A stretch of 64,000 nt of DNA from Clytia hemisphaerica (lineage: Eukaryota; Cnidaria; Hydrozoa; Leptothecata; Clytiidae). Each line of letters begins with the position of its first letter. The stretch's first letter is position 1. The translations under genes and the position numbers were made by a program. This document shows positions 3,546 through 49,858 of the stretch, piece by piece. The stretch spans positions 55,315 to 119,314 of the forward strand of contig CACVBU010000886.1 in NCBI GenBank assembly GCA_902728285.1. Reading direction: 5' to 3'. The notes below the pieces were generated by a model. That model ran no database searches and was not told where the DNA came from. It saw nothing but the letters and a program-made list of their open reading frames with translations.

Positions 3546-5204
3546 GAAAGTCAATCGACAGCTGTGGTGAGAAAAGTATTTACTTTTATTTTGCCTTGGT
3601 TGCCATGGTGTAATTAATACCAAAATTAGGAATACGTCAACGCACCAAAAAAAAATAAACATACGTTGACAATGTGATACACTATCCAATAATCAAGACA
3701 CACTGTTACATGAAAATGGTGATTGAAATTATTGGATATTATGGTGTGTTTTCCTGGTGAATTACGAGGAATCATAATTTGCAACCAAATTTGAACTTTC
3801 AATCAGTGAATGGATGGTTATTTTACCGAAGATTTTCAAGGAAAGAATATCTTTCATGAATCACAAGATAAAACCTTATTTTGCAGAAACCACTTGCAAT
3901 TAAAAATAGCAAGATTACTACTAGACTGTTATTACTATAGCTCCACTGGGAGACATGCAGATTCGATTTTTATTGTTATATTTATTTATATGAAAATACT
4001 TTTGTTAGTTAGCGTTTTGTAAAATATTATTTTTTTCTTATTGTATATAAAATTATGTAAGTAAAATACAGAAGAAGTAAATGGAAAATGAATGAATTTT
4101 AAAGTCAAAGTTCACCGATGTAGATCACCATGTGTCACTACAAAAGTTTGAGAATATCGTTATCGTGATTTCTTCAGCAACCAAATTTCAAACTTGTTAC
4201 ATTTTTCACTTTTTAGTGTTTTTGTGCAATAAAAAAAAGGTTAGCCTGGATATTTAAATTCAAAGTTTTAGAAAAAAAGAAACAAGAGAGACAGATTTTT
4301 TAAGTGATTCCAAGTCTGATGCAAATAAAAAAGTCTGATACAGTCTGTAATTGGGCCTCTGTTGATAAGAAGAATCTCAAATCTTTGAAGACGATCACAA
4401 TGAAAATCCATCTATATACTGTCTAAAGAATAACACAAAAAAACGAGGGTATCGTTCAACTTTATTAAATTAAATCTTTATTTTACAAACTTTTTTCGAC
4501 TTTTTTCTATTTGGTAACATTCCACTCTCGAAAATATTTTCAACAAGCATAAAACCGATGTCTAATTCAAACTCTACAGTTTCAGCCGTTTTTGTCTCCG
4601 CTGTAGATTATATTGAGACAGACTTTGCATATTTTTTTAAAGTAAAACGGCAACTGAAAATTGAGTAATGTCAAAAGTATAGGGAAATATGTTATATAAA
4701 GCGGCTTCCTAAAAGAAACCGCAATTTTTCAATAACTTTCTCGACTATAAAAACTGGTTTAAAATATTTCAAGCGAATTCAAATTAAAGAGTAGAACAAA
4801 GAACACTTTTACTTCAGTATACTTAGTCTGAATCGCAGACCTCTACAAAACCATAGGTAGTAGAGGTCTGCTTAATGATCTACCAACCGCTTTCCGGTTC
4901 GCAAAGGAAATCTTGGCGAGTAATTTGATTGACATTGATGTGCGCGCAAAAACGATCGTTTCGAACGTTTTCAATGGAATGTTTACATTTGAAATTCGAA
5001 TCCCAGACCAGAAAAACAAAACAGAAAAAAGATAAAAAACAATCTGATGCGCGCATTATGTACAGTCTGTAGATTTATTTTTGACTTTTGCTTTTATAAG
5101 ATATCTGGTCTGTAACTTTATCAAAACTTTTCCATCAGCTCTTCGGTCGAAGCTCAAAAAATACAAATATGAACACAAATATGGCGCGCCAAAGCGGAAA
5201 TAAA
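3546..5204. other. 3' UTR and intergenic stretch after WRAP73-like gene
   Basis: No coding exon seen. It holds the likely 3' UTR (AATAAA at 4228-4233) and AT-rich spacer. A small hairpin has 12-bp arms at 4835-4846 and 4860-4871 (GCAGACCTCTAC and its complement). Confidence 0.5.
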
Positions 5205-6258
5205 TACTATCTTTTTAAAACAATACTATCTTCGTTTAAAACATACTATCTTTGTTGTAAACATACTATCTTCGATTAAAACATACTATTTTCGTTCAAA
5301 AAATACTATTTTCGTTGAAAAAATACTATTTCCGTTTGAAAAAATACTATTTCCGTTTGAAAAAATACTATTCTCGTTTAAAACATACTATCTTCGTTTA
5401 AAAACATACTATCTTTTGTAATGATACTATCTTTTTTTAAACAATACTATCTATTTTAAAACAGTCTGGAAACGAGGTTGGCACGTCTTGCCTCGCTCAT
5501 TTTAAAGTTTGCATGACCCGCGCATGGTGGGACGGCGGGACCATGCTTGCTGGATGGAAAGAACAACATGCTTTATATGGAAATGGCGGAACAGAAAGTC
5601 CAAAATGTGGTGAAAACACCACTGTTTTGGTTTTGATCTCAATGTTAAAATTTCTTGAGTAAATTCCTTTCTTCGCGTTCTAAGTGTCCTATCCGAGACT
5701 CCAATAAGATCAGCAATTTCCTTCCATTTGAACCCTATTGTTTTTAGTGCAAGGACTTGGTCTTCGTTGATATCTTTCAATGGTCTGCCACGAGTAGCCA
5801 TTTTACTGTCAGTCAGGTCAGATCTTGTAGGGAGCCGGAAGCCATCTTGTTATGTTGGTCCTGCATGTGGGCGGATGATAAATGATAAACACGAAAAACC
5901 AACGCCCATTACACGCCCCTCAAAATGAAAATTACACAAATTTGAATAATCGAGGCAACCTATATTCGAAAAAAGATAGTATTTTTTAAAAATATAGTAT
6001 TTTTTTAAAAGATAGTATTTTTTAAACGAAGATAGTATGTTTACAACAAAGATAGTATTGTTTTAAAAAGATAGTATGAAAGATAGTAAAAATAGTATTA
6101 TTTTTTAAAGATACTATGTTTTAAACGAAAATAGTATTTTTTAAGCAAAAAATAGTATGTTTTAAAAAAGATAGTATGTTTTAAACGAAGATAGTATGTT
6201 TTTAAAAAAAAAAGATAGTATGTTTTAAACGAAGATAGTATTGTTTTAAAAAGATATA
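5205..6258. mobile_element. Foldback element with satellite-like tandem arms
   Basis: The left arm (about 5205-5464) is a tandem array of a ~20-bp unit like ATACTATCTTCGTTTAAAAC, roughly a dozen copies. The right arm (about 5970-6258) is an array of the reverse complement (GTTTTAAACGAAGATAGTAT), again about a dozen copies with drift (TTCG, TTTG, TTCC variants). The ~500-bp centre (5465-5969) includes an HTH-like coding fragment on the minus strand (5502-5801). The arms could fold into a very long imperfect hairpin. I interpret it as a foldback-type transposon; its superfamily is unknown. Confidence 0.75.
5502..5801 (-). pseudogene. Helix-turn-helix N-terminal fragment inside foldback element
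   Basis: A 99-codon frame starting at ATG 5801 (minus). Its first ~45 residues look like a resolvase/transposase-type helix-turn-helix: MATRGRPLKDINEDQVLALK, then KWKEIADLIGVSDRTLR. Open frames with this kind of start are common in cnidarian transposon proteins that continue into an integrase-like catalytic region. Here the frame runs into unrelated sequence after about residue 50 and no catalytic domain follows, so I read it as a captured or decayed 5' fragment. Whether it is transcribed cannot be seen. Confidence 0.4.
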
Positions 6259-6930
6259 CACATAAGTGAAAGAAAACAACCAGAAATACTCCAATCTCTT
6301 CAAAAAATTGGAGCTAAGTACCTGAAAAGATACAAAGGCCACACAGTATTAAAAAGTGAAATGCCAAAGCTGAAGAAAAGTTCTTTGTTTGTTTTAACAT
6401 TTAAAGGCCCTTGTTGAAGGAACAACAACACTCCCTTTTGTAGAATCATAAAGAACTAATGTCAGAAATATTCAACAATATGACCCCCAAAATGTACTGT
6501 ATATACATAACTAAAATACCTTGAGATAATCTGCAACATATCTGTCGAACTGACAAAACAATTATCTGGAGCCAAAGTGATCAACGAATCCAGTGTGGTA
6601 AAAAATTATACACTCATGCAAGTCCAAATTAAAGCATCAAAATGTAGTTTTATGAAGCAAAATTTTGTTGGTGCACACAGAAGATACATCAAGGCACTTA
6701 AATTCAATAAATCTAATTTCTCATCTTTTACAAAATCTCCACATTAAACAAGAAAGGAGGAAGAAAAACAAGCAAACTTCCTTCCGCCTACTTTTTTTTC
6801 AAAATCCAAATATATTTTCCAATCTATGATTTGGTGCCTCACAGAAAATTTAAACATTACGTAATGTTATATTTGTAGACACTCGCCAGCTAAAAATGTC
6901 TTTAGCCGTATATCGGCTAAAGGCGGCAAA
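6259..6930. other. AT-rich intergenic sequence
   Basis: Nothing coding recognised. It lies between the foldback element and the target-site duplication of the retrotransposon. Confidence 0.4.
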
Positions 6931-6942
6931 TCTCTGGACAAA
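6931..6942 (+). repeat. Target-site duplication, left copy
   Basis: TCTCTGGACAAA. The same 12 bases occur on the minus strand at 17504-17493, immediately after the poly(A) of the 3' half-element, so this pair marks the ends of one retrotransposon insertion. The bases on either side differ (TAAATC here, GGAAAT there). Confidence 0.85.
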
Positions 6943-9025
6943 TAAATCATAAATCTCCGAGCATTGTTTAACAAGATGGCGGACGGAGCTGTGTAGAAGC
7001 AAAACAACAACATTGATATACTTGAAGTTTTCGTTCAGACGTATGTACAACTTCAGAGTTCTTCGTATTGTGTTATACTGTTATCTCCAGCTACAATGAC
7101 AAGCATATCTCGTGAAAATTCAAACAAAAACAATGAACCAAACCAAAACAAATTAGCATTTTCATCACCCCCACCTGCACTGGACGCTGCCTATGGATAT
7201 TCACCCAACGTCCCCCCACCTGAAGTCCATCATCAAGCACCAAGTCAACCTAGACATTTTGTTAAAAAGACTTTACTCAAACCTGGTGAAAGCTTTTTCA
7301 ATATCTTGCCAAACAGAACGACTGAAACCCCAATTCTAAATGAGACATTATCTACAAAGATACTACCAGACTCGCAATCACAAACGCTTCAAGTCAATAC
7401 ACAGCAACATTTTCCTTGTGACCTTTGTGATCGAACGTTCACTACAAAATCAGGGAGAACAAACCACAGAAAAAAATGCAAAAGTTTAAGCAGTGCCAAT
7501 CAACCACCACCGCCACCACCACTACCACCTCCTGCCCCAGCATTGACCGTGTCGCCCCCAGCCAGCACCTCAGATCTAATCGAGCCCTCTCGGAACAACC
7601 AAACCATCAACCAAGGGCCAACCTTACAAACCACATCAATTCAAAACAAACCTGAAAATACCGAACCTAGAAACCAAATTTGGGGACTTCATACAAAAGA
7701 CGATTTACTTCAAGTAATAAACTCTTGCTATGAGGAGATTGTTTTTTTTCGCAAGAATCTTTTTCTCCTCCCATCTGGCAGAACCGGTAAAGAGTACATA
7801 AATGAAATGATAAAACTTATAACCTACTGGAACCAAAACTCAAAAGACTTATCTAACATTTCGGCAAAGATGCTCATGTGTATGCCTGCTCTTCTGCTCC
7901 AGAAGCCACATCAACGCTCAAAAAGCAAAGAGCACACAACAGATTTAGATAGAAGACTGACTGCATGGAAAGATGGTGACTTTGATAAATTAATGAGAGA
8001 AGCCAGAGAAATCCAATCACGTATGAAAAACTCCCAAAAGCAATCTGCCTTTTCAATCACAAAGGAATTCACAAAACACATGCTTCGAGGCAATATTCAA
8101 GCAGCACTTAGACTTTTAGAAAACTCGTGATCCAAAGGAATTCTTGACCTTGATACCAACACTAAAACCATTCTTCGTGACCTTCACCCTTTCAGTTTGG
8201 AGCCAGAGCCAGACGTCTTACGAAATGCAGATATCATTGAAATCGATCCAATTGTTTATGAACAAATAGACAGTTGTGCCATACTCTCTGCTGCTTTAAA
8301 AACTAAAGGGGCTGCAGGCCCGTCAGGTATGGATGCTAATGGATGGTGCAGAATATTGGCGTCAAGAAACTATGGCAAAACCGGAGAGGACCTACGGACA
8401 AGCTTAGCTAACATGCTCAAGATACTATGTCGACATTCTATTAACCCTGAATCATCGGAAAGGGATCTTGAAGCTTTCCTCTCATGTCGTTTGATCCCCC
8501 TCGACAAAGATCCTGGGGTTAGACCCATCGGAATTGGGGAGGTGCTGCGTAGAATTTTTGGTAAAACTCTGATTTCAATTGTCAAGAACGATATTATGAA
8601 GGCTGCTGGCTCTCTCCAAGTATGTGCTGGCCAGAAAGCTGGTTGTGAAGCAGCAGTACATGCCATGCATACTATCTTTGAGGAAGAGGCTACGGATGCC
8701 ATACTTTTAGTAGATGCTTCAAATGCGTTCAATTCTTTAAACCGAAAATCTTTTCTACATAATATCAAATCGCTTTGCCCCGCTATTGCCACCTATGTAT
8801 CGAACTGTTACTCTAGAAAATCGAGACTTTTTGTTAGTGGTGGTATGGAAATCAGTTCAGAGGAAGGTACTACCCAAGGAGACCCCCTTGCAATGCCAAC
8901 CTATGCCATCGGTCTCCTTCCCTTACAAGAACTTATCCAGGAACAACTAGGAGAAGATCCCATCAAAAGTGTTGCCTTTGCAGATGATTTAGCTGGAGCT
9001 GGCAAATTGGCGAAGCGAGAAAAAT
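6943..9025 (+). mobile_element. 5' half of non-LTR retrotransposon split by inversion
   Basis: Runs from just after the 12-bp target duplication, through a ~150-bp 5' UTR, to the abrupt end of homology at about 9025 (CGAGAAAAAT). It encodes the zinc finger and most of the reverse transcriptase. The matching 3' half is at 17505-19153 on the opposite strand. Together they total about 3.7 kb. Confidence 0.85.
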
Positions 9026-9027
9026 AA
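7096..9027 (+). pseudogene. Retrotransposon ORF, N-terminal part: zinc finger and reverse transcriptase
   Basis: One reading frame from ATG 7096 interrupted by a single in-frame TGA at 8128-8130 (codon 345); it ends at TAA 9025-9027 where the element is broken. Residues ~105-130 form a C2HC-type finger (CDLCDRTF ... NHRKKC), followed by a proline-rich linker (PPPPPPLPPPAP). After the TGA, reverse transcriptase motifs are in order: GPSGMDANGW, RPIGIGEVLRRI, LLVDASNAFNSLNR, GTTQGDPLAMP and the catalytic FADD (about 8973-8984). Product: RNA-dependent DNA polymerase for target-primed reverse transcription. The TGA could be a CGA-to-TGA change. Missing here are the thumb, CCHC knuckle and endonuclease, which are all in the 17689-19149 piece. 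Confidence 0.85.
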
Positions 9028-9101
9028 CTACCTGCAGAGTCGTTTCACTGGTACAGTAAACGATGCTCTTTCTGATAACTTTTGACCTATAAAAGAAATT
9101 A

Positions 9102-10016
9102 TACAGTATATGGCCCCCAAAACGGAGGTTTTCATTAAAATGAAGATTCTGACTTGTAGATTTATCAGAATTAAACGATTTTTGTTTATTTTGAAAGAAT
9201 GATGGTTATACTTAAAAATGAGCATGTTTTTGCTGGTTTGAGACGGATTCAACATAACATATTTGCGTCTAAAGGAAATATTTGAACAGCAAAATTAGAT
9301 AAAAATTGCATATAACTCACACTAGCTCCTTGGATATTATGGTTATGAAAACGGGGTATAGGAAACTTTCTACACCTAATGCCGTTCAGAAAATGCAAAT
9401 ACATCTGTGACTTTAGAGGCTGGGTAAAAGATATAGCATCATCGATGGATATAGCATCATGAAGGTCAACCAGTATTTTGGAGCCCTAGAATCATCATTG
9501 ACAAAACCGAAAATTCTAAAATAATATGAGAAAAAGCAAAAAATCTTGGAATTCTATTCCTATCACCTTGAGTTATATAATAGTTCATAGTTTTTCCCCC
9601 TATTACCACTGGGCTTAATAATTTGATTTTAGCTACACCTCCGTTTTGGGGGCCCCAAACCTGCATTTTGACAACCAGGGGTATACTGTAAAAATTTTAT
9701 CAAATAAATTTATGCCCAAAACCCTCGAAATCATATTTCAAAACTATGGTCAAAATTTTGTATTCATATCTTAAAGATATCTCGAGAAATCACTAAAATT
9801 TCAAACCTCCGTTTTGGGGGCCATTAGAAAAAAGCTACCTATCTTTAAGCGGTTGAAAAATATTGTTGAAATTGAAAATTTTGAAAAAGAACTTCCAGGA
9901 AATAAAGTAGAGATGTTAAAGGTTCTCATGCAGCAAAAATATTTGTAAAATCTCTTTTCCACTAGATTTGAGAGAAATTTCAAATTTGATCGCCGTTTTG
10001 GGGGCCACATACTGTA
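9102..10016. mobile_element. TA-flanked DNA transposon relative (TACAGTA...TACTGTA)
   Basis: Ends TACAGTATATGGCCCCCAAA (9102) and ...GGGGGCCACATACTGTA (to 10016) are inverted repeats of about 24 bp. Further internal copies of CCGTTTTGGGGGCC lie near 9640 and 9810. Possible TA duplication, as in Tc1/mariner-type elements. No transposase frame. It begins ~77 bp right of the retrotransposon break at 9025. Confidence 0.65.
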
Positions 10017-10884
10017 GAGATTTCTTTTTTTTATTTGATAGCTTTTTTAAGCCAGTTTCAACATCCAAAGGACTTTTAGTGCGTTCAGCTACAGCTTAAC
10101 CGGCGTGCGACGCCGGGTACCGGCTAGTGTTTTGATATTGTGTTCTGTGTGTGGCGTGATTTCATATTTTTGATATGAAACGAATTAAGTCAACGACGAA
10201 TAATTATGCAAATTATGTGAGTTTACGTTATCCCTCGCCGCGAAATTTGAGTTGTCGTTGTTGTCAGTTGATAAGCTACCGAGTTTACTGTCCCTAAGCT
10301 AGTTATTCAGTCACAACTTAACCATCAGATTTATACAATTGACTGAATCAAACTAGCTTAGATTTCTAGGTTAGAGTAAGGCCTAAAAGCCTGGGACTGT
10401 ATATTATGTAGACAAATAAATCATAATTTCAAAAATGTATATTTCACCTTATCTTCTATAATTTCGTTAAGCCCAGACACCAATGTATTTCTATCAAGCA
10501 GCGAGTTATGCACTATTATCGCTCACATTTACCGGGTACTCATTTTGCCTAACAACACACCCCTCCCCGTACTTATGCAAACAGATGCAAACACCCTTAT
10601 ATGTATTACCTACCTTGTTTTTGTAGACCTTTTACGACAGTATAAAGAATACCTTAAGGAAGACATTTTGGCGGAAAGAAAATTCGCCAAATTCGCCAAA
10701 AAAAATTTCTGCCAAATATAAATTTATAGGTCATTCACCAAATTTAATTTTCTTTCAATTTAGTCTCTATTTCTCCTAAAAACCCTTTCTTCCTCTTTTT
10801 TAAAATATTGAACAAAAATCTTAATCGAAAATAGGACTTTATCCAAAAAATAGAACGTCACATTAGACTGTAGTTTATATTAAA
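10017..10884. other. Intergenic with short repeats
   Basis: No coding exon seen. It contains a palindromic GC-rich motif near 10100-10127 (ACCGGCGTGCGACGCCGG, then TACCGGCT). A short dispersed repeat at about 10376-10412 (AAAAGCCTGGGACTGT) is also present near 32640-32680. A TTCGCCAAATTCGCCAAA tract lies near 10680. Confidence 0.45.
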
Positions 10885-11149
10885 TGGGCTCTTCCAGAAA
10901 AAATCCGTTCATGGGGGGTGGAGGATGAATTGTCCAGGGGTATTGAAAAAATACCAAAAAATTGCAATGTCCAGGGGGTAAATTCCAATGTCCAGGGGTA
11001 ATTTTTTGTGTCCATGGGGTTGATTTAATGTTTGTCCAGGGGTATAACCCGTGTCCAGGGGGTTAAAAATCAAAATGTCCAGGGGTAATTCATGAAAAAA
11101 ATAATATATCCTCCACCCCCCATGAACGGATTTTTTCTGGGAGAGCCCA
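10885..11149. mobile_element. MITE with internal TGTCCAGGGG tandem repeats
   Basis: Inverted repeats of ~40 bp: TGGGCTCTTCCAGAAAAAAT at 10885 and ...TTTTTCTGGGAGAGCCCA to 11149, including CCGTTCATGGGGGGTGGAGG and its complement. The core holds about seven or eight copies of TGTCC(A)(G)GGGG(TA), one every 20-30 bp. Confidence 0.75.
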
Positions 11150-11472
11150 ATGAATTGATTTCAGTTTTTCTGTGTTAGGATAAATTAATTAAGTTGTTAA
11201 ATTCAGTTGCCTTTTGGTTAAAGATTATATATATATATACAAGAATCATTTAGTTTCGGGAACTACAATCGGGGACAAAAAAGAATGAAATAACACCTCA
11301 AAATTAACTTTTCCTCTGCCCCTACAGACGTGTCTTAGGCTAATCTACCTACAATGTGTAACCAACTTCCCAGCAACCTGAACCTCTTACCCGACATTGT
11401 ATAGAGTGGAGAGGGCTTTAAAGTCACGTGTTTCTATGATTATGCTCTGGATTGTATGTAGGTTTCAGAACA

Positions 11473-11704
11473 TACCTTACGTGGATAAATTTTGGCGTGG
11501 ATTTAATTTGGCGAATGCTCAATTTTGTAAAATTTGGCGGCGATTTAATTTGGCAAGTGGAAAGGTTTTAATCTCTGGTAAACTAAAAATCACGTGGTAT
11601 TTTAATAAGAAATGCATATTCTCCATAAAATTTATATCTTAAAAAAAATTCGTTAAATTTGTCACCAAATCTAATCCCCGCCACAATTTATCCACTTAAG
11701 GTAT
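11473..11704. mobile_element. Small MITE, TA-flanked (TACCTTA...TAAGGTA)
   Basis: Left TACCTTACGTGGATAAATTT and right ...AAATTTATCCACTTAAGGTA type ends are inverted (about 35 bp: TTGGCG(T)GGATTTAATTTGG against CCAAATCTAATCCCCGCCA). It sits just downstream (3') of the TSR/SUEL gene. Confidence 0.6.
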
Positions 11705-11779
11705 ATAAACTCCTCTTATTTGAATTTTTTAATGATTATATCGAATATTTTCTGAAAAACGAAATTGATATTACATCAT

Positions 11780-14700
11780 TTATCCATAACATCTATATTT
11801 CAAATAAGCGTATGGTTCCGTTCGCCTTGTGTTTTGTCCAGTCGGACATGGATAGCCTCCCATTGCTGTATCTGTTGCAGAAATTGTACACGAGTTTTTA
11901 CCCTCGCAACTGTTACGGATTGGTGTTTGTCCACCCCGACATCTGACATTGTCTTTTAAAGTTCCAATGAACCAACCCCCGCCACTGCTCGATGGACATA
12001 CGGTAGATGATTGCCGACCATAAAAATAATCAGACAATCGAATTACTTGTGTAACCTTTGGGCATTTGATCATTTTGGTATTTCCGTTACACAGATTCAC
12101 TTCATTATAAGAAGACCAACCTGAAAAAATATTTTTCAAAAAAAAAGCCTTTGATTGATTATCGAAAATAGAGAGAAGTAAAGAAAAATTTCAGAACTGA
12201 AGATGAATTCTAAGATTTTGAGTCCAAACCACCGGCAACCTTTGTCGAAACCTCGGGAGAGGGGATAGACAAAATAGGTGCTGGGTATGTGCGGACTATA
12301 AGGGTCGGTATTTTTACCTTCCCGAGTCTCTGGGTTATAAAAAAACAACAAAAAGTCAAAATAATCTCTCTAAGGGACTTTTTGAAAATTGTCTCTCTAT
12401 AAGCATCGAAGGTCAAAGCACTACCGAAGGAAAGGATAGTTGTACTCAGTAATAAAGCATGAATGGCGCCTGGGCGTTTGAGTGTGGGGTGTTTGAATGG
12501 CGTTTACCGGACGGTATTAAAGTGAAGCCAGAGGAGCTTCAAGAAAATTTCTAACATAGAAATTTGGTCTTACAGCTTTGAGCATTACAAGCACGATTTT
12601 CAGTGGCTGCACCGGGACATTTAATTCCACCATACTTTGGTGCTGGATTGTTACATGTTCTTGATCGTTGCTGAGTACCACCTCCACAGTTCTTACTGCA
12701 TAATCCATAGAGTGACCAAGCTCCCCAACCTCCATTCACTGTGGAAAAAAACAGAAGAAACAAATATATAGAAAATAGAAGCAAGGAACTTTAATAAAAC
12801 TTCTATTTAAGTTTCTTTATAGAATAAAGTTTTAAGATTGTTTTTGTTCCCATTTATAATTAATCTAATTAAGAGCGGATTATTTTTTTTCTCGCAAATT
12901 TTGGCCATCTACGCGTAATTTAGTCCTTCCAAAATATCGTTATTTTCCAGAACCTCTGTACGAGGAAAATGGAATGATATTAGGTACAAAAAGAGGCCGC
13001 AAAACTTGATTCCATACGCGAAAATTTCTACACCTGATCTGATCTCATTTCGAATTTCTCGAATTTTAAGGGACCAAAACTTTTCTTTCGAATTACAGAG
13101 AGTAATCTATACCACTCGCTAGCAGCGGAGGCCAATATTTCAGTTCTAATTAAAGAGTTAATAGATTGTACCAATATACCTGGACAATTTTGTGTATTAC
13201 AGGTTCTATTTTCTTTGGACATTCCTTGACAATCTTTGCCTCCATATTTTGGTGGTGGATTATTACAAGCTCTTGATCGAATCTGAAATCCTCCTCCACA
13301 ACTTTTACTGCAAGAACCAAAAGAAGTCCAATTTCCCCATTTACCATCGACTAGAAATAGAAAAGCTCATTTTTATTAAAGGATACCTATTCAAAATCAA
13401 AGGTTTTATTTTTACATAATTTTTCCCGTTTCATGCCAGACATATTATTTCATATCATGACATGATGGTGTATAAGCAAAAATTGTTTTTCTTTTTGTCT
13501 TTCTGACCGATCTTGCTCCACATCCGTTTCAATCCAACGTGAAATAGCTTGTGAATTAAAATTGATGAGTAAAGCGAACGATATCATTCTTACTTAAAAA
13601 CAAAACCTTTAACATGAATGATAGTAAAAATGAAATACAGATTCACTAAAACAAAACTCTGTGTACCTGGACAATTTTGAAGATTGCAGGTCTTATTTTC
13701 AACGGATATCCCTACGCAATCTTTGCCTCCATATTTTGGCGGTGGATTATTACAAGCTCTTGATCGAATCTTAAATCCTCCTTCACAGCTTTTTGTACAT
13801 GGTCCAAAGGAAGTCCAGTTGCCCCATTTGCCGTCAACTTTTAATGAATAATAAAGATAGATATCAAATATACCATAAATAGTGGAATTAGCTTGAGATA
13901 AAATCAAGAAAAGTTTTAACACTTATTTCTCGTAGTAAGATATCTCGACGGTTACGTGCCATTTCGTCAACATATTGTTAGGGCCGAATACTGAAACAGA
14001 AGACTCTTCCTGACTATTTAAAGAAAACATTTCAGGGAAATTCTAGTCTTTTAGAGATATAATTTTACCTGGACAGTTTTGTGCGTTACAGGCTCTGCTG
14101 TCATTTGCCAACCCTACACAACCTTTTCCTCCATCTTTTGGTGGTGGGTTATTGCAAGATCTTGAACGAATCTGAAATCCCCTACCACAACTTTTACTGC
14201 ATTTTGTGAAGGAACTCCAATTTCCCCATTTACCATTGACTAAGGTTGAGATTATTAAAAATATATATCTCGCGATGTTAAAATTTGATACAGGGGTGTG
14301 TTTATGTTAAGTATAAGTTTTCTTAATGTTCTTGCAGGCTGGAAATTAAATTTTCCAACAATCTCCAACGATCTTGTTTGACCTACTTTTTTTTAGTCGG
14401 CAGTCAGAGGCAACCCAAAGGTTTCTTTTTTTAGCCGAAGGTAGGCGAGAGTGTCACTCTTTCCCATAGATTGCTCCACTTACCATTGATCCTTCTAAGT
14501 GCTGAGAATCAAGCAGAGAGGTATCAAGTACCATTTTAGGAATCTTTGGTATGACCCGATTTGGGGTTGAACCCACACCATGCGCACCGTAGCCGGTTAC
14601 TCTACCACTGCGCTACGGTCGCTTAACACTTCAATACTAGTACTTGAAATAGAGTACACGTTTTTTTAATAAGAACAAACTATGAATGCTAAGAACAAGT

Positions 14701-16612
14701 TGAGAACATCTATAGGCTTTGCGGACTCGAAAAACCCCGAATTTTTAAGTAATTGGGTAAAAATGATCACAGAAAGGAGAAAATAAGAATATTCCAAGAA
14801 CATTTTTAGGGTTATAACTCAAAAAGTTAAGAACATCCGAAGGCTTAAAAATTTTTGGATGTTCTTATTAAAAAAACGTGTATCACTCACTCGGACAAGA
14901 GTTGACGTTGCAGACTTGATTCTGTGTGGCTGGTCCTTGACAATCTTTTCCTCCATATTTTGGTGGTGGGTTATTGCAAGATCTTGAACGAATCTGAAAT
15001 CCCCTACCACAACTTTTACTGCATTTTGTGAAGGAATTCCAGCTTCCCCATTCACCATCAACTATGAAGTAAGTTGAACAGAAAATGTCACTATAAATGA
15101 TAAGTAGTATGTAGTGTAAGTAGTATGGACATCTACTGGGTGCACCAAAAAAAGTATACAGGTTTGTCGGGATATTGTGAGCTTCAGGATTTTTATTTTT
15201 TATTCATTATTTTTTATCGTATAGAGGATGTTCTAACTTACAGAACTAACTTTACTGTGATAGAAAATGAAAGAACAATGGTCATTAAATAGACCATGTG
15301 TAGCAAGAGAAGCTATATTTTTTCTTTCGAAATCCTCAAAATTGCAAAAAAAAGGGACGAGATGGAGTTTTTACAAGCTCTTATTTGATTTGGTTGGTCA
15401 TTAACTAGTAATTTTGTTACTTTTTCTAAAGAACACTTCATTTTTATTACTTCAAATGACCAATTATTAAATTATCTTATAAAAACTCCATCTCATCTGA
15501 AAAAACAATCAATAAAGCATACCCGTTTGATCCCCAATGTTATAAACATACTGCGTTCCGATTCCACCAATACAAAGTTTGTGTGTAGAATCGCACTTCT
15601 TGAAATCATGTCCTATGCAACGATCAGATTTTTGCCAAGGATTTGCTAAACTCATATTAAAGTTTTTCTCGTTGGTAGCTATCCAACATTCTGCAAAACT
15701 TCCCAAAGCAAAAGCAACGCCATTTTGTAACGCTCTCTTTGCACATTCACAGGATAACCTAGAATAAATGAAGTCACTTTGTCAGTAGAATAAAATGAAT
15801 ATTTGTTTAGCAATCGTTGACTTTAACTCCTGAAACGGTGTAACATTTTGAAAAACATTCTTGAGTCGACAGGGTTTGACTGTCAAAGATTAGAAAAATG
15901 GAGGCTACACGGGGCTTTGACAATTTGTCTCAAAAAAACACCCTTCGGATGCTCTTAACTTTTTGAGTTTTAAGCCTAAAAATGTTCTGAGCATGTTCTT
16001 ATTTTGACGATTTTGTGAATATTTTTGACTATTTTCCTAAGAAATAGGATGTTTTTGAGTCCACAAAGCCTTAAAATATTCTTAACTTGTTCTTAACATT
16101 TTGGCCAGCGAAGCCTTATGTTCTTATATAGTTTGTACTTATAAAAAAAATGTATATTTTCTTACTCTTGAAGGGAGTCTTTAAAGTTTCCCCAGTTGAC
16201 CTGCTTTCCAGTAAAAATAGCACTGTTCGAATCTCTGTTATTTGCGATTTGTGTGTGATAGACAACTCGGTTTGTCTTGATGCATCTTTTTCTTTCGAAT
16301 CGAACCGGACAATCTGAAAATCATTAAGAATAGGGTGCCTTTATTTTCATCCTATAGGGTTGATAATCTTTTTGATGCATGTACAGGAAGATAATTGGAG
16401 GGGCGAAGATCCTATTTTCCGGATAAGTAATTTTAAGCGTAAAACCTCAGGAATTTCGCTACGAATGTTTAGTAGAAATGACTGGATCTCCCAACATTAC
16501 AATACCTTATTTGCAAAATATAATCAGGGATATAAACACACAAAAATCTATCTTAATTACCTTTCCCGTGCAGCAACCCCAACGATAGGATCAAAATAAA
16601 TGTAACTAACAT
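11780..16612 (-). CDS. Secreted TSR + SUEL lectin protein, rhamnospondin-like
   Basis: Nine exons, all phase-consistent (minus strand, 5' to 3'): 16612-16561, 16313-16166, 15758-15523, 15061-14891, 14239-14069, 13837-13667, 13350-13180, 12738-12574 and 12120-11780 (stop TAA 11782-11780); 541 residues. Exon 1 is a signal peptide (MLVTFILILSLGLLHGK). Residues ~18-145 form a cysteine-containing N-terminal domain with CECAKRALQNG and AECW motifs, a type seen in cnidarian secreted proteins. Then come five thrombospondin type-1 repeats at ~146-202, 203-259, 260-316, 317-373 and 374-428. Each has WGxW, CSKSCG/CTKSCE, RSRxCNNPxPKYGG and a closing NCPG-like end. Residues 429-541 are a SUEL/rhamnose-binding lectin domain (YGR, CEGKNSC, GYPCP, YLKYRC). 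The TSR exons are symmetric phase 1-1, four of them exactly 171 bp, consistent with exon duplication. Family knowledge: such proteins bind glycans extracellularly. The architecture matches that reported for Hydractinia rhamnospondin, with fewer TSRs as I recall it. Confidence 0.9.
14553..14620 (-). repeat. tRNA-like SINE fragment (GACCGTAGCGCA family)
   Basis: The minus strand reads GACCGTAGCGCAGTGGTAGA (box A-like) and GTGGGTTCAACCCC (box B-like), ending CGGGTC. It resembles a tRNA gene, but the anticodon arm does not fold and the acceptor stem is imperfect. It shares its first ~20 bases with the copy at 22446-22510, so it is a tRNA-derived SINE or tRNA pseudogene in intron 4 of the TSR/SUEL gene. 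Confidence 0.55.
14646..14884. mobile_element. MITE of the ACACGTTTTTTATAAGAAC family, copy a
   Basis: Ends: GTACACGTTTTTTTAATAAG (from ~14654) and ...TTCTTATTAAAAAAACGTGTAT (to ~14883). Interior motifs AAGTTGAGAACAT, ACTCAAAAAGTTAAGAACAT and GGCTTAAAAA are shared with copies at ~15940-16155 and ~59645-59896. Its edge is only ~6 bp from the splice donor at 14889-14890 of the first TSR exon. Confidence 0.7.
15940..16156. mobile_element. MITE of the ACACGTTTTTTATAAGAAC family, copy b
   Basis: Shares AACTTTTTGAGTTTTAAGCC, GAGTCCACAAAGCCTTAAAA, TTCTTAACTTGTTCTTAACA and TTATATAGTTTGT with the copy at 59645-59896. It lies in intron 2 of the TSR/SUEL gene. Confidence 0.7.
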
Positions 16613-16979
16613 GTTTCTAGATTTTTTCTTCGTGTGCTCTTCTGACATGTGAGTGCAGATTAAACGAAAAATTAAAAGTAACAACCTTTTTTATATACAT
16701 TTTTAGTTTTCATTTCACCATCAATGTTCTGTACTGAACCAGTAATATATCATACGAGGAGGAGACTGTCAATATCCATATTTGGTATTCATCGCGAGCC
16801 ACAATTGAACTCTTTTCTTATGTTTTTTGGTAATGTGCAATACAAAAATATGTTTACCATCTTCTCGATTTCCCCTTCAAAGCTGTTCAAACTTGATAAT
16901 GTTTACGCTTCTCGTCATTATTTCAGACGTAAATGCATTTCTTCGAATGTGAAGGATCTACAATCTCGATTGAACTACA

Positions 16980-17066
16980 CTGGTTGTTTTATAAGCACAA
17001 CGTTTATAAGCATACTTAGGCTCAAATTTGGGAAAAAATAAACATAATACTAAGCATACCTCAAAG
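16980..17066. mobile_element. Fragment of an ATAAGCATAC repeat, truncated
   Basis: TTTTATAAGCACAACGTTTA, then AAGCATACTTAGGCTCAAAT and CTAAGCATACCTCAAAG. It resembles the ends of the element at 21303-21691 and stops where a G-rich MITE begins (17067). Confidence 0.5.
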
Positions 17067-17340
17067 CCCAGGGGGGATACATAGGCAAATGCAGGTTACG
17101 GTATGTGCCGCCCTCTTAAGGGTACTTTTTTTGGACTTCCAAAGTCCGGTTAAGGGTCGGAAAAATCAGAAATCAAATTTCAGTCCCACTAAGGGTCGGA
17201 GAAAAATTTCAACTTTTTACCCCCGGAAAGATAGAAATTTGGTCAAAATTGGTCAAAGTTGTCCCAATAAGGGTCATAAAATTCACAAAATTTTCCATTG
17301 TTTTCTCTTTTAGTCCCTTTTAGCAAAGATTAAGGCTGAA
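17067..17340 (+). mobile_element. G-run MITE family, copy 1 (3'-truncated)
   Basis: Starts CCCAGGGGGGATACATAGGC and continues with GGTATGTGCCGCCC, GACTTCCAAAGTCC, AAGGGTCGGAAAAAT and GGTCAAAATTGGTCAAA. This is colinear with the full copies at 19640-19971 and 25781-27214, but the C-run right end is missing. Confidence 0.75.
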
Positions 17341-17492
17341 AATGGCTAAAGGCTAAGCATTTTGAACCTCGACCCGATTTTCCCGTGTGCTACTGCTTTT
17401 ATTTACTGAGAGTTCCAAGTATACTGTAGGCTGCTGGCATCCACTAACGGATTCGTGCTCCTTATAGAGGATGCTTAATAAGCTATATTTCC

Positions 17493-17504
17493 TTTGTCCA
17501 GAGA
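17493..17504 (-). repeat. Target-site duplication, right copy (inverted)
   Basis: On the minus strand this reads TCTCTGGACAAA directly after the poly(A) run, identical to 6931-6942 on the plus strand. Confidence 0.85.
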
Positions 17505-19153
17505 TTTTTTTTTTTTTTTTTTTTTTTTTGTATAATAATAAATCAGATATTTCTCTCTTATAAGAACTCCTACAAAATGTTACAAGAACTTGTAAAAAGT
17601 AAATTGATTGAAAAATCAAAGAAAAAACACAAAATTTTAGCCTAACGCTCAAAAAGTATACACATATACATAATCAATTGAGATCACATTACATGTAGCC
17701 TGTAGCCTCTGTAATGTTTATGTCCATGGTATGAGCTACAGTTCTCTTGGGTGTTCTACTCCCCCGAATACATAAAACAGTCGATCTGACCAAAGCAAAA
17801 GATAGTTTAGTCCTCAAGAAATTTAAAGTCAAAGACATCATTTCATTCTTTTTCTCAGACAGGAGCATACTGAGGGTTTTTATAAACATTTGTGCTTCCC
17901 TGCCTGAGCCTCCATTTGTTGTGAAAATTAGAGGCGTAAAGGATCCTCCATCAACCTGTATAATTCTCTGATTATACTTTCTTTTCTTCTCTTTCTCGTT
18001 GACCTCAAAAGCTTTTGAAGGGCTCATTCTAGAGTACCTTTGGGCATAGGCATTGAACACCCTAACATCAAAAAATGCCCGCTGGCCTCTAGTCCAGAAC
18101 CCCCCAGCACTAATGTCAGCCCTTGCTCCATCCTCCTTTATGGCGCCTGATGCAAGAAGTTCACCAGTAATGGGCTCCAGCTGAGGGTCAATTGTCACGT
18201 CGTTTGTGACATCATTCAGTAGGTAAGCAATTGTGTCTCTAATTTCGTTGTGGCGTTGATACACGAAACCTCCCTTTGGGCACGATAATGCATGCTCGAC
18301 TGAGAAACGCTTTCCACACGCACATATACTGGGAAGGTGTTTAAGCTGCCATCTGTAACGAATTGCGATCGAGTCAAAGAATTCCCGTTTCGTCAGGACG
18401 AATTGCTCGCTCTTCAAAGGTTTTGCTGTCAGCCAGTTGGAAGCTCCCTTGACTTGTGCGAAGTCGTTTGCTTTAATTTCCTCTGGTGTCATTTCAGCTC
18501 GGATGTCGTTAAGAGTTTCCTTGTGTCGTGCTTCCTTTTCCTTTTGGATCTTGTATTTTAAGCTGGTTTCAGTTCCTGGGAGCTCTTTCTTTTGTTCAAC
18601 AATATTCTCAGTCAACTCTCTACTTACAGTCAATGAGTTGTTAAATTCAATTTCTGCTATCTCGGACATAATAGGAATACCGAGACCCCCATATCTGACT
18701 GGTAGGGCTATGAGACGACGTTCCAATTGGTTACATATGTGGCCTTCTGTAATGGCAGGGATCAATAGGTTGTCAATGGTATTGTCAAGTGGAATAAGAA
18801 GATCTTCTATGTCGCTCGACACTCTCAGATGGTACGTAAATTTGTGAACAAAACCACCAACGAAGGCACTATATGCACATTGTGGTTGTGATTTAGCTAT
18901 GTCTGCCAGGATTTCGATCTGCTTGCACCAGTCAGTAACACGTTCTTGGAAATAGGTTCGCTTGTATGATTTGTCTCCAATTGTTCCTCCCAGGTACTTT
19001 TTCCCGTCCACAGTAATTTTCACATTTGTCCCTGAGAAAATCTGTTCAGCTTCTGCTAATTTCTCCTTGTCCTTTACAATTAACCAGGATTTCGTCGCTT
19101 TAGGATAATACCCTATGAGTGGGCCAATACGATTTATGATGGTCCACCATTTT
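17505..19153 (-). mobile_element. 3' half of the split non-LTR retrotransposon
   Basis: On the minus strand, homology begins abruptly at about 19149-19153 (AAAATGG), runs through the RT C-terminus, CCHC knuckle and endonuclease, then ~160 bp of 3' UTR, and ends in a 25-base poly(A) (T run 17505-17529 on the plus strand). It begins at exactly the position in the element where the 6943-9025 half stops. Confidence 0.85.
17689..19149 (-). pseudogene. Retrotransposon ORF, C-terminal part: RT thumb, CCHC knuckle, restriction-like endonuclease
   Basis: An uninterrupted frame from 19149 to stop 17689-17691, ~487 codons. It opens with WWTIINRIGPLIGYYP and KSWLIVK, typical of the region just after FADD in this family, then GKKYLGG and a thumb-like region. 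CACGKRF...EHALSC (about 18262-18310) is a CCHC knuckle. EDGARADISAGGFW and RAFFDVRVFNAYAQ further on are the PD-(D/E)XK-like nuclease (REL-endo type, as in R2-like elements). This nuclease nicks target DNA to prime reverse transcription. The first internal ATG is at 19023, but the real frame extends upstream of it to the break, in phase with the frame ending at 9024. Confidence 0.85.
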
Positions 19154-19639
19154 ATCGCGTTAATATGCCGTCCAGTTTAAATGACAATTTTTCAGGAAAA
19201 AGTGGGAAGGTCAGAAAGAACAGTGCGACTCTTTGTTTTTATCAGATCGAAAAAAAAAGACAATTCTAAGTTGCTTTTTTAAACCCTTGGCATAACTTTT
19301 CGAATTTAAACATAAACATAAACACACTTTTAACATAACGACGACTTGAATATTTTTATAAGAAGAAAGAAGTGAAATATTTTTTTCTTATGCTTTATAT
19401 CGCCCTTTGAGTTTGAATGCTGTTGGGATGCTGTTGTTGTCCACAAACTTTTTGATTTTTATGTTTTGATTTACTTTTGAAATATTCTTTTCTATGAAAT
19501 GAAATTGTTTTGTTTTGAAAAGAATTCGAATGTCATTAATAAATACGATCGTTAAATGCATTCGAAAACATTTAAAACAAAAGAAGAGAGAAAAAGGCAA
19601 GTCTGGGCACAAATTAAAATTACTAAATGTATATGGGCC
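19154..19639. other. Intergenic beyond the inferred inversion breakpoint
   Basis: AT-rich, no exon recognised. The last nine bases (19631-19639, ATATGGGCC) are the left target duplication of the next MITE. Confidence 0.4.
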
Positions 19640-19971
19640 CCGGGGGGGGGGTACTTAGGCAAATGGAGGGTACGGTATGTGCCGCCCTTAAGGGTACCTT
19701 TTTTGGACTTCCAAAGTCCCGCTAAGGGTCGGAAAAATCAGAAAATCAAATTTCAGTCCCAGTAAGGGTCGGAAAAATAGGAAAATTTCAACTTTTTACC
19801 CCCTGAAAGATCGAAATTTGGTCAAAATTGGTCAAATTAGTCCCGCTAAGGGTCGTAAAATTCCCAAAATTTTCCTTTGTTTTCTCCTTTTTAGTCCCGG
19901 TAAGGGTCCAAAGTTCGAAAGTCGGGCGGCACCCCCCCGTCAGCTCGCAACCCTAGTACCCCCCCCCCGGG
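19640..19971 (+). mobile_element. G-run MITE family, full copy 2 with target duplication
   Basis: Ends CCGGGGGGGGGGTACTTAGG and ...CCTAGTACCCCCCCCCCGGG are inverted. The interior has repeated AAGGGTCGGAAAAAT blocks and GTGCCGCCC/GGGCGGCAC subterminal repeats. It is flanked by ATATGGGCC at 19631-19639 and 19972-19980. A target duplication of 8-9 bp suggests a Mutator- or hAT-related element. Confidence 0.85.
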
Positions 19972-19980
19972 ATATGGGCC

Positions 19981-21302
19981 TTAAATTTCAAAACAAAGGC
20001 TGAATAAATGTCTAAACCAAGCTCTATCCGATCTTTTGCAAATGGCGCGAATCCAATAGAACAAATTTGTGGAGCAAGGGACTAAAAGTCATAATTTTAA
20101 GAAAAAAACTTTTTTCTTCATCAGTTCAATTCTTCCCAAAAACAAGAGAAGCACTATCAGGTCGGGATCAGGTCTTGAAAAATTTTTCTGATACAGTATT
20201 CCAAATATATCTCTCGGCTCTCTCTTGGTAATAGTCTCACATCATAATATATCGAAGAAAGATCTTGCATTCAATGAGTCCCATCCTCTTCTACTCGTTT
20301 TCTGATAAAATAATTATAAACTTCTATCGCTCACGAAAACTCCCGACTTTTTACCACGTGACCCACTCTGACCAATCAGAAGCTCACCGAATCCTGCGTT
20401 CATATTATGAACGCACCCTTTCCCTAAGCCAGTATTCCAAGGCAAACTTAAAATCCGTAAATATAAAAAATCTTTAAAGCGCCGAAAAACGCTATATTGC
20501 CATAAGCCGTGTGTCCTAGCCTTGTGAATACGGGCTTAGTTAACTAGGCTAGCCTTACTCTTGGTCTATAGAAGAATTGACGTAGCTTATGGTTTATTTG
20601 TTTAAAGTCTCGGGGGCCGGGTTGTTTTATCAGCTGTGTTAATTTTTGAAGATCAATATTGTCAGTAGCTACTTCTAATGTTAAGATTAATTCAGCTTTT
20701 AAGTGTCACTGAAGTAAAGTTAAATAATAGGTTAATTCAGACGGTTTTTATGTAAAAATCGAAAAGTATTTAACATTTCAAGAAAAATAGTAGAGGCCTG
20801 AGAAAAGAAAAGACTGAAGAAAAAGAAGAAAAAACTACTCTAAAAGGTCCAGAATGGTATGGGAAGAAATGAAAGGGGGGTCCGAAATTTTTACAAAATC
20901 TAATAAAAACGGGGGCACCCAAATAAACGGGGGGGGGCTGAACAAGGAAGGCTATAAAGCTTCTGAGGATGGCATCGTAGCTTCACGCATAAGGAAGTTG
21001 GGCAAACATCTCATGATTTTTCGCGCGTTTTTCAGTATTTCAGTTCCGCTTAACGGTAGCATTCTTATCTTACGGTCTCTCTATTGTTTTATCATCATCA
21101 AAAAGACTTTTCCTGAGTTATTTTGATCTGAATACTCATTTTGAAATGTCAGTTTGTCTTTTTCTTATCCCTGGAGAGTTAAATGAATCTAAGGAAATTC
21201 CCTTTTCTGGGAAATTCCCTTTTTATACCACAAGTAGTTACTAAGCGCTCTTCATAGTTTAAAAATATTACTCTACTCAAAGTATTCGAAAAGTTATGTT
21301 GC
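19981..21302. other. Intergenic, no gene recognised
   Basis: Open frames here (for example near 20265-20477 and 20854-21126) lack domains. G-runs occur near 20874-20938. Confidence 0.4.
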
Positions 21303-21691
21303 TACACTCATTTGGTTTTATAAGCATACGGTAAATTTCGGCTGAAGCTCACTATGCTTAAGTAAAACTCAATTTTGAGCCTCGACTATGCTTAACCCTA
21401 TGCTTGGTAAAAAAATTATGAAGGGGGGGGGGAAGATTTTTCGCGCATTTTCCCCTCTCTTTAATCTTGAGAGAAATGAAGACATTCTATTGTTTTCGAA
21501 TGTTTACCATATGATATATGATATAGGATATATGATTCTTTCTTCTGTTATTTTCTGAAGTTTTGGAAATTATGATTCTAAAAATTTCTTTGGCTGAGCC
21601 TCAAGGTATGCTTAGCATATGCTTAATTTTTCTGGAAATTTGAGCTTCAGTATGCTTATAAACGTTATGCTTATAAAACAAAATGAGTGTA
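21303..21691. mobile_element. MITE with ATAAGCATAC terminal repeats
   Basis: TACACTCATTTGGTTTTATA at the left and ...TATAAAACAAAATGAGTGTA at the right are inverted, with subterminal GCTGAAGCTC/GAGCTTCAG. Related fragments occur at 16980-17066. Confidence 0.7.
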
Positions 21692-21849
21692 TACGTGTAC
21701 ATTAGTAAAATAACATATGAAGAGCAGTATCTTCAGATATATACGCTTTTTATAGGAAAGACCAGTAAGTCATATGATTCTGGCTGGGCTGCCCTTAAAT
21801 TTATATGAGTTTTCAGGCTTAAATGCCAATATTAATTAAAAAGGAAACA

Positions 21850-21960
21850 TGTACTTCTCATCTGAGGTTCAGATTCTTCTTAATTTGTTCTTAGGTTTTG
21901 GCCAAATTTCAGCCTCGTATTCTTATGAAATTGTTCTTATAAAAAACGTGGAAGACAAGG
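21850..21960. mobile_element. Fragment of the TTATAAGAAC MITE family
   Basis: TTAATTTGTTCTTAGGTTTTGGCC and TTGTTCTTATAAAAAACGTG match one end of the family at 59645-59896. Only one end is seen. Confidence 0.45.
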
Positions 21961-22445
21961 CACGGATGTCACTCTAAGTAGACTGTAAATCACTCCCTTG
22001 ACACATTTGTTAGCATTTGAAAGAATTTTGTCTCAGATAAGAGGTCACTCTTAACAAAAATTACTGTAGGGCTAAGATCATTCCTTTTGAACGCAAATTC
22101 AACTCTATGTGTTCGGTTTGCTGCGGTGGCACCTTAATGAAAGTTATGGCTAGTATAAGAATATACTTTATAAGAATATTCATAATGAATTTGGCTAAAA
22201 AATTAAATATGCTAAGAATATCATGGAATTTGGCAAGTGAAGCGAAGAGTGCCCTTTTATGCTTGGGAAGTAATGTATTATATGGTGATAAATATAATTC
22301 TTAAAAAATTGCACAAAATACACACAATATGGTAAGGATAATGCCTTGATAAGTTCTTAATAAAAAAGGGGGAGAGTCCGAAAGATTTCAAAAATTATTA
22401 ACTGGGTGGTGATGTTTATTTGGGATCTTAAGAATACGCATATCG

Positions 22446-25771: not shown

Positions 25772-26002
25772 GTTTTTATGCCGGGGGGGGGGTACTTAAG
25801 CAAATGGAGGGTACGGTATGTGCCGCCCTTAAGGGTACTTTTTTGGGATTTCCAAAGTCTCATAAAAAAGGGTCGGAAAAATCAGAAAATCAAATTTCAG
25901 TCTCACTAAGAATAAGGGTCAGAAAATAGAAAATTTCAACTTTCTACCCCCTGAAAGATCAAAATTTGCTCGAAATTGGTCAAAATTAGCCTTCGTATTA
26001 GG

Positions 26003-49806: not shown

Positions 49807-49858
49807 GGTATGAGTTAAAATTAAAAGAATTGTTTCGACGTTTGCCGCATAAACAGTA

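Follow-up and report, generated by a model that had tools for sequence, protein, structure and literature searches.

A probable inversion that split a non-LTR retrotransposon and turned round a rhamnospondin-like gene in Clytia hemisphaerica

Chromosomal inversions that carry a retroelement at a single breakpoint have been described in primates. In a comparison of human and chimpanzee (Lee et al. 2008), 63 of 252 inversions had a retroelement at one breakpoint only, one of them being noted for two L1s in the same direction, and the account given there offers microhomology as one possible explanation for this group (PMC2603318). According to the same account, target duplications, among other methods, decided the ancestry of 49 loci where both breakpoints have elements, and not that of the 63 (PMC2603318). 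In Drosophila, inversions made through staggered breaks are predicted to leave a short inverted duplication at both ends of the segment as their footprint, and the inversion studied in that work is itself described as complex (PMC7584159). Here we examine a stretch of 64,000 nt from the hydrozoan Clytia hemisphaerica (contig CACVBU010000886.1; hereafter the window), where what appear to be the two halves of one non-long-terminal-repeat (non-LTR) retrotransposon lie in opposite orientation at the junctions of a segment that includes a complete-looking gene for a secreted protein with TSR and SUEL lectin domains, similar to the rhamnospondins.

As in the inversions of Lee et al., a retrotransposon is found here at one breakpoint and not at the other. 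Unlike in those cases as described (PMC2603318), both halves of the element and its target duplication can still be read, the order of events is visible in a single genome, and the element is R2-like. With respect to the staggered breaks of Drosophila (PMC7584159), the present duplication is only 5 nt long, so that microhomology and fill-in are indistinguishable. The class of event is already known from primates and flies, and the locus presented here is an unusually legible new example of it.

Two halves of one element and its target site

The first 2,083 nt of the element lie on the plus strand (6943-9025) and its last 1,649 nt on the minus strand (19153-17505), limits that had been proposed in a first-pass annotation and that hold on re-examination. 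With the shared AAAAT taken once, both halves sum to 3,727 nt. Their contents are complementary, one half having the reverse transcriptase as far as the FADD motif and the other the remainder together with the poly(A), the latter half containing a single open frame of 487 codons. Judged on these sequence features, the halves are one non-LTR retrotransposon (Table 1).

The outer ends of the two halves carry both marks of a target-primed (LINE-type, long interspersed element) insertion, that is, a target-site duplication identical at 12 of 12 nt and a 3′ poly(A) adjoining it. The 12-mer, TCTCTGGACAAA, had been reported at the left end and, inverted, after the poly(A), and it is exact at both places. 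Since AAA precedes it at both sites, the duplication may measure anything from 12 to 15 nt. Additional copies nearby would have counted against its significance; there is no further exact copy in the 64 kb, and a search allowing up to two mismatches returned 14 sites, the two exact ones among them. When the sequence anchored at the poly(A) was compared with the 996 nt that precede the element's stop-to-stop frame (6001-6996), the match was 12 nt long; 9 out of 20,000 anchors placed at random elsewhere in the window did at least as well. Neither of the broken ends has a poly(A) or a target duplication of its own.

At the inner ends, each junction bears one part of a broken sequence, and the two parts are oppositely oriented, which is the signature of an inversion made by two breaks. 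The broken ends have AAAAT in common; when inversion junctions were simulated at random in this window, 0.7% of 100,000 draws had five or more bases in common. If AAAAT is taken once, the reading frame crosses the join through K (9022-9024) and continues with TGG TGG (WW); frame continuity alone is a 1-in-3 coincidence. The first-pass annotation was thus right about the common pentamer and the continuous frame, and it left unmentioned that a TGA interrupts the frame within the 5′ half. Because of this stop codon, this copy of the element was, or became, defective independently of the inversion. The surroundings of the two junctions (8525-9525 and 18653-19653, 500 nt on each side) share no exact inverted match longer than 9 nt. 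In addition, a list of 101 inverted pairs was compiled for 5000-22000, and none of the best 25, ranked by length, connects the two junctions. The window is free of N.

Table 1. Coordinates in the window of the split element, the inverted segment and the gene that it carries
Feature	Position	Strand	Remarks
Left target-site duplication, TCTCTGGACAAA	6931..6942	+	12 nt, up to 15 with preceding AAA; exact copy of 17493-17504 (-)
5′ half of retrotransposon (putative)	6943..9025	+	5′ leader, CxxC-x12-H-x3-C finger (by eye), reverse transcriptase to FADD motif and a little more
In-frame TGA within the element's reading frame	8128..8130	+	Two stop-to-stop open reading frames, 6997-8130 and 8131-9027, in the same frame
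AAAAT, left junction	9021..9025	+	Common to right junction
Inverted segment (proposed)	9026..19148	.	10,123 bp
Nine-exon TSR/SUEL (rhamnospondin-like) gene	11780..16648	-	Signal exon, two N-terminal exons, five TSR exons, one SUEL lectin exon
Right target-site duplication, TCTCTGGACAAA	17493..17504	-	After the poly(A); inverted along with the segment
Poly(A) tail of element	17505..17529	-	25 nt, uninterrupted
3′ half of element minus tail (putative)	17530..19153	-	Remaining reading frame and 3′ untranslated region
Rest of reading frame in 3′ half	19152-17689	-	CxC-x7-H-x3-C knuckle (by eye)
AAAAT, right junction	19149..19153	-	Read 19153-19149

Order of events and alternative explanations

The arrangement very probably arose through a full-length target-primed insertion that was followed by an end-joining inversion with one break inside the element and the other outside. 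An element of ~3.7 kb would have inserted at TCTCTGGACAAA by target-primed reverse transcription, as the duplication and the poly(A) show, ~0.85 kb upstream of the lectin gene and in the same direction. The anatomy of the locus points to a later double-strand break in the reverse-transcriptase region of the element and to a second break 10.1 kb off, after which the piece between them would have been rejoined in reverse, flipping the lectin gene as a whole unit with the segment. AAAAT would represent either an inverted 5-nt microhomology used in the joining or a filled-in 5-nt staggered end, two possibilities that differ only by the content of the ancestral distal site. The finished insertion is placed first because the duplication is present at both outer ends, and the inversion second because it took along, besides the 3′ half, the right duplication and 8.5 kb of host DNA; the same order had been proposed at first pass, and the orientation of the duplications supports it. 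With no exact inverted match above 9 nt near the junctions, end joining is a better explanation than recombination between repeats. This maximum, together with the lack of a connecting inverted pair among those inspected, suggests neither ectopic recombination nor a repeat-driven flip of the assembly. Recombination between inverted repeats was accordingly rejected, imperfect repeats being judged from the best 25 of the 101 pairs.

Several points weigh against this reading. The ancestral adjacency of 9026 and 19149 is something that we only infer. Also, the reverse-transcriptase profile RVT_1 scored 29.0 bits on the joined sequence and 30.1 bits on the 5′ piece alone, while three shuffled tails gave 32.0, 28.9 and 30.2 bits, the best score of all coming from one of these. 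Altered joins behaved alike, with 28.8 and 28.6 bits for X-insertions and 29.2 and 30.2 bits for deletions. Likewise, the match to R2 in the Protein Data Bank (PDB) scored 26.3 bits for the unjoined piece and 25.5 bits for the joined fragment, in which it was confined to the 5′ part (10-168) and in which a maturase was matched at E 1.5. Neither the RVT_1 nor the PDB test supports the join.

We then considered whether the locus could have been produced in other ways. A chimera of contigs or reads might have flipped the segment during assembly, the true chromosome having an uninterrupted element. Such an assembly error is unlikely from what the sequence contains, given a window without N, breaks that are both precise to the base, junctions with just 5 nt in common and no exact inverted match above 9 nt within 500 nt of them. 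Matches of 5-9 nt are not the usual places for assembler flips. A more complex rearrangement, by which the 3′ half and the gene were copied or moved and re-inserted reversed through replication-based template switching or several breaks, would agree with published inversions, which can be multi-break or replication-based (PMC7584159), and with the fact that the distal flank is the former neighbour of 9026 by inference only. We consider it distinctly improbable, as a two-break inversion accounts for every observed feature and a blastn comparison (E 1e-3) of the left-junction stretch (6943-9700) with the right one (17505-20000) gave no match within the window.

Inverted halves of one element are also the usual sign of twin priming, an inversion during the target-primed insertion itself. 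Twin priming would leave adjoining halves within direct duplications, whereas at this locus the inversion includes the right duplication as well as 8.5 kb of host DNA. Hence, unless that 12-mer is there by chance, its orientation rejects this explanation, and the halves have no second end of their own; the exclusion of twin priming at first pass was well founded, and we regard the idea as hardly credible. Barely any probability attaches either to independent insertions of two members of one family that are complementary by coincidence. Members of a family could indeed be truncated at different points, but a 5′-truncated copy should show TTTGTCCAGAGA at 19154, and at 9026 one would expect a tail and a duplication belonging to the 5′ half; none of these is present, and an identical 12-mer lies at the outer ends of both halves. 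Separate insertions were therefore rejected on the broken ends, which show no second duplication or poly(A).

Returning to insertion followed by inversion, both events seem recent, since the duplication is intact at 12/12 nt, no other base interrupts the 25-nt poly(A) and the frames are nearly open; the inversion may for that reason still be polymorphic. We put forward only tentatively, as a proposal more doubtful than not, that the inversion is both recent and still segregating, and that it has placed an immune gene of rhamnospondin type, with its promoter region, behind a broken retrotransposon.

Coding capacity of the split element

To what kind of retrotransposon the two halves belong was approached through their coding parts. 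The 178-amino-acid piece encoded by 8491-9024 matched RVT_1 in Pfam with an E value of 4.9e-07 and R2 proteins in the PDB (9nl3_A, E 6.5e-05; 9dou_A, E 7.7e-05), the R2 reverse transcriptase aligning over 159 of its 178 residues. For the longer piece of 298 amino acids (8131-9024) the RVT_1 match had an E value of 2.2e-06 and 28 bits, just below the Pfam cut-off of 29.6, and no PDB match was obtained at E 1 or E 10. The reverse transcriptase thus appears R2-like, and the likeness is weak because the longer piece stays under the Pfam cut-off and has no PDB match. Like R2, the element has one long reading frame and, as seen by eye, a C-terminal knuckle. Unlike R2, its frame is broken by a TGA, it has a poly(A) tail and a 12-nt duplication, and no C-terminal nuclease is recognised in it by any of the libraries queried. 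R2 proper inserts in the 28S rRNA gene, whereas this element has no rRNA gene around it, no Rfam match at gathering score being found in 6500-20000.

The 3′ half matched no Pfam family at E 0.001, no NCBIfam family at E 1 and no PDB chain at E 1; pieces of it gave weak, unrelated matches (DUF7823, E 0.047; Big_15, E 0.097; two PDB chains, E 1.1 and 1.3). We take it as likely that this half encodes a restriction-like endonuclease, with the knuckle presumably having the meaning it has in such proteins, both being assumptions on our part rather than results. AlphaFold models made without an alignment had a mean predicted local distance difference test score (pLDDT) of 33.9 for the 298-amino-acid reverse-transcriptase piece and 34.1 for the 487-amino-acid 3′ half. 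Relatives of the element were also sought outside the window. In viral contigs, 3 and 26 stretches fitted a peptide pattern and none was confirmed as a relative; a degenerate motif pattern had no hit in viral contigs and none in prokaryote contigs, the latter being queried with one pattern; and tblastn of plasmids with the reverse-transcriptase piece alone found no relative. At the other end of the element, AAGATGGCGGA lies at 6973-6983 (+), 30 nt from the 5′ end, and we take it to resemble a YY1-type motif such as that of mammalian L1 promoters.

The lectin gene, neighbouring features and significance

The first-pass annotation had all nine exons of the lectin gene within an inversion of about 9026-19148, and indeed they splice to one open frame inside the segment. 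The spliced frame has 1,662 nt and a single terminal stop, with AG/GT at 8 of 8 introns (borders picked manually). Pfam TSP_1 was matched in all four TSR pieces scanned and SUEL_Lectin was matched as well, the fifth TSR being found by tblastn only and the signal exon by eye. Both breakpoints fall outside the coding exons; on one side the start codon is 844 nt away from the target duplication, which is followed by the poly(A) of the element. The gene is apparently complete; it would have been flipped whole and is probably still functional.

The combination of TSRs with a galactose-binding lectin domain is apparently specific to cnidarians (PMC4820225). Hydractinia rhamnospondin (Rsp) is described as a protein of 726 amino acids with a serine-rich N terminus and eight TSRs (PMC3269628). 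The present gene has the rhamnospondin architecture on its predicted product (secreted, TSR repeats, C-terminal SUEL lectin) and resembles Rsp and Hydra Tsrp2 in joining a signal sequence and TSRs to a SUEL, rhamnose- or galactose-binding lectin domain (PMC3269628, PMC4820225). It differs in the number of TSRs, five as against eight in Rsp and eleven in Tsrp2 (PMC3269628, PMC4820225), and in a length of 553 amino acids as against the 726 of Rsp (PMC3269628), with an N-terminal part that has 8 Cys and is not serine-rich. These cysteines are carried by the two N-terminal exons, and a count by eye on the translated sequence gave 8 Ser among the 128 residues that link the signal to the first TSR. 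Neither Hydractinia-type feature, the serine-rich N terminus or the eight TSRs, was thus found in this gene. One of its introns contains at ~14620-14400 (-) a tRNA-like sequence with A and B boxes that by eye is similar to a short interspersed element; it had no Rfam match at gathering score.

Various repeats are found around the breakpoints. Two arrays of a 20-nt minisatellite of the ATACTATCTTCGTTTAAAAC type (5204-5463 and 5969-6256) stand in opposite orientation ~500 nt apart and could form a large hairpin beyond the left breakpoint; they were rejected as a substrate of the inversion because both lie outside the two breakpoints. A dispersed repeat of ~250 nt occurs at 17071-17317, 19645-19898 and 25786-25987. 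Its first two copies flank the 3′ half of the element in direct orientation, are 88.7% identical and would have been mutually inverted before the inversion; as they are now in direct orientation, they were also rejected as a substrate. Near the left breakpoint, a short repeat around GGCCCCCAAAACGGAGG is present in both orientations (9091-9131, 9803-9824 and 9993-10028).

Further along the window, a second LINE (44002-46779, +) has an open frame of 925 codons with matches to RVT_1 (E 4.9e-31) and Exo_endo_phos_2 (E 0.0002, under the Pfam cut-off), and no similarity between it and the split element was detectable (best tblastn E 1.5). An intronless frame of 664 codons at 49853-51847 (+), of the cationic amino acid transporter type (AA_permease_2, E 5.5e-51; AA_permease_C, E 8.6e-19), is perhaps a retrogene.

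With its two halves the element labels one breakpoint at single-base precision, and from this single genome it can be read that insertion preceded inversion. The split element is also an exact marker, by polymerase chain reaction or long reads, with which the inversion can be typed in populations. The locus suggests that end joining can flip an intact immune-type gene without a long repeat common to the breakpoints. If the inversion is recent and segregating, it would provide a ready-made case for asking whether selection acts on small inversions near immune lectin genes in cnidarians.

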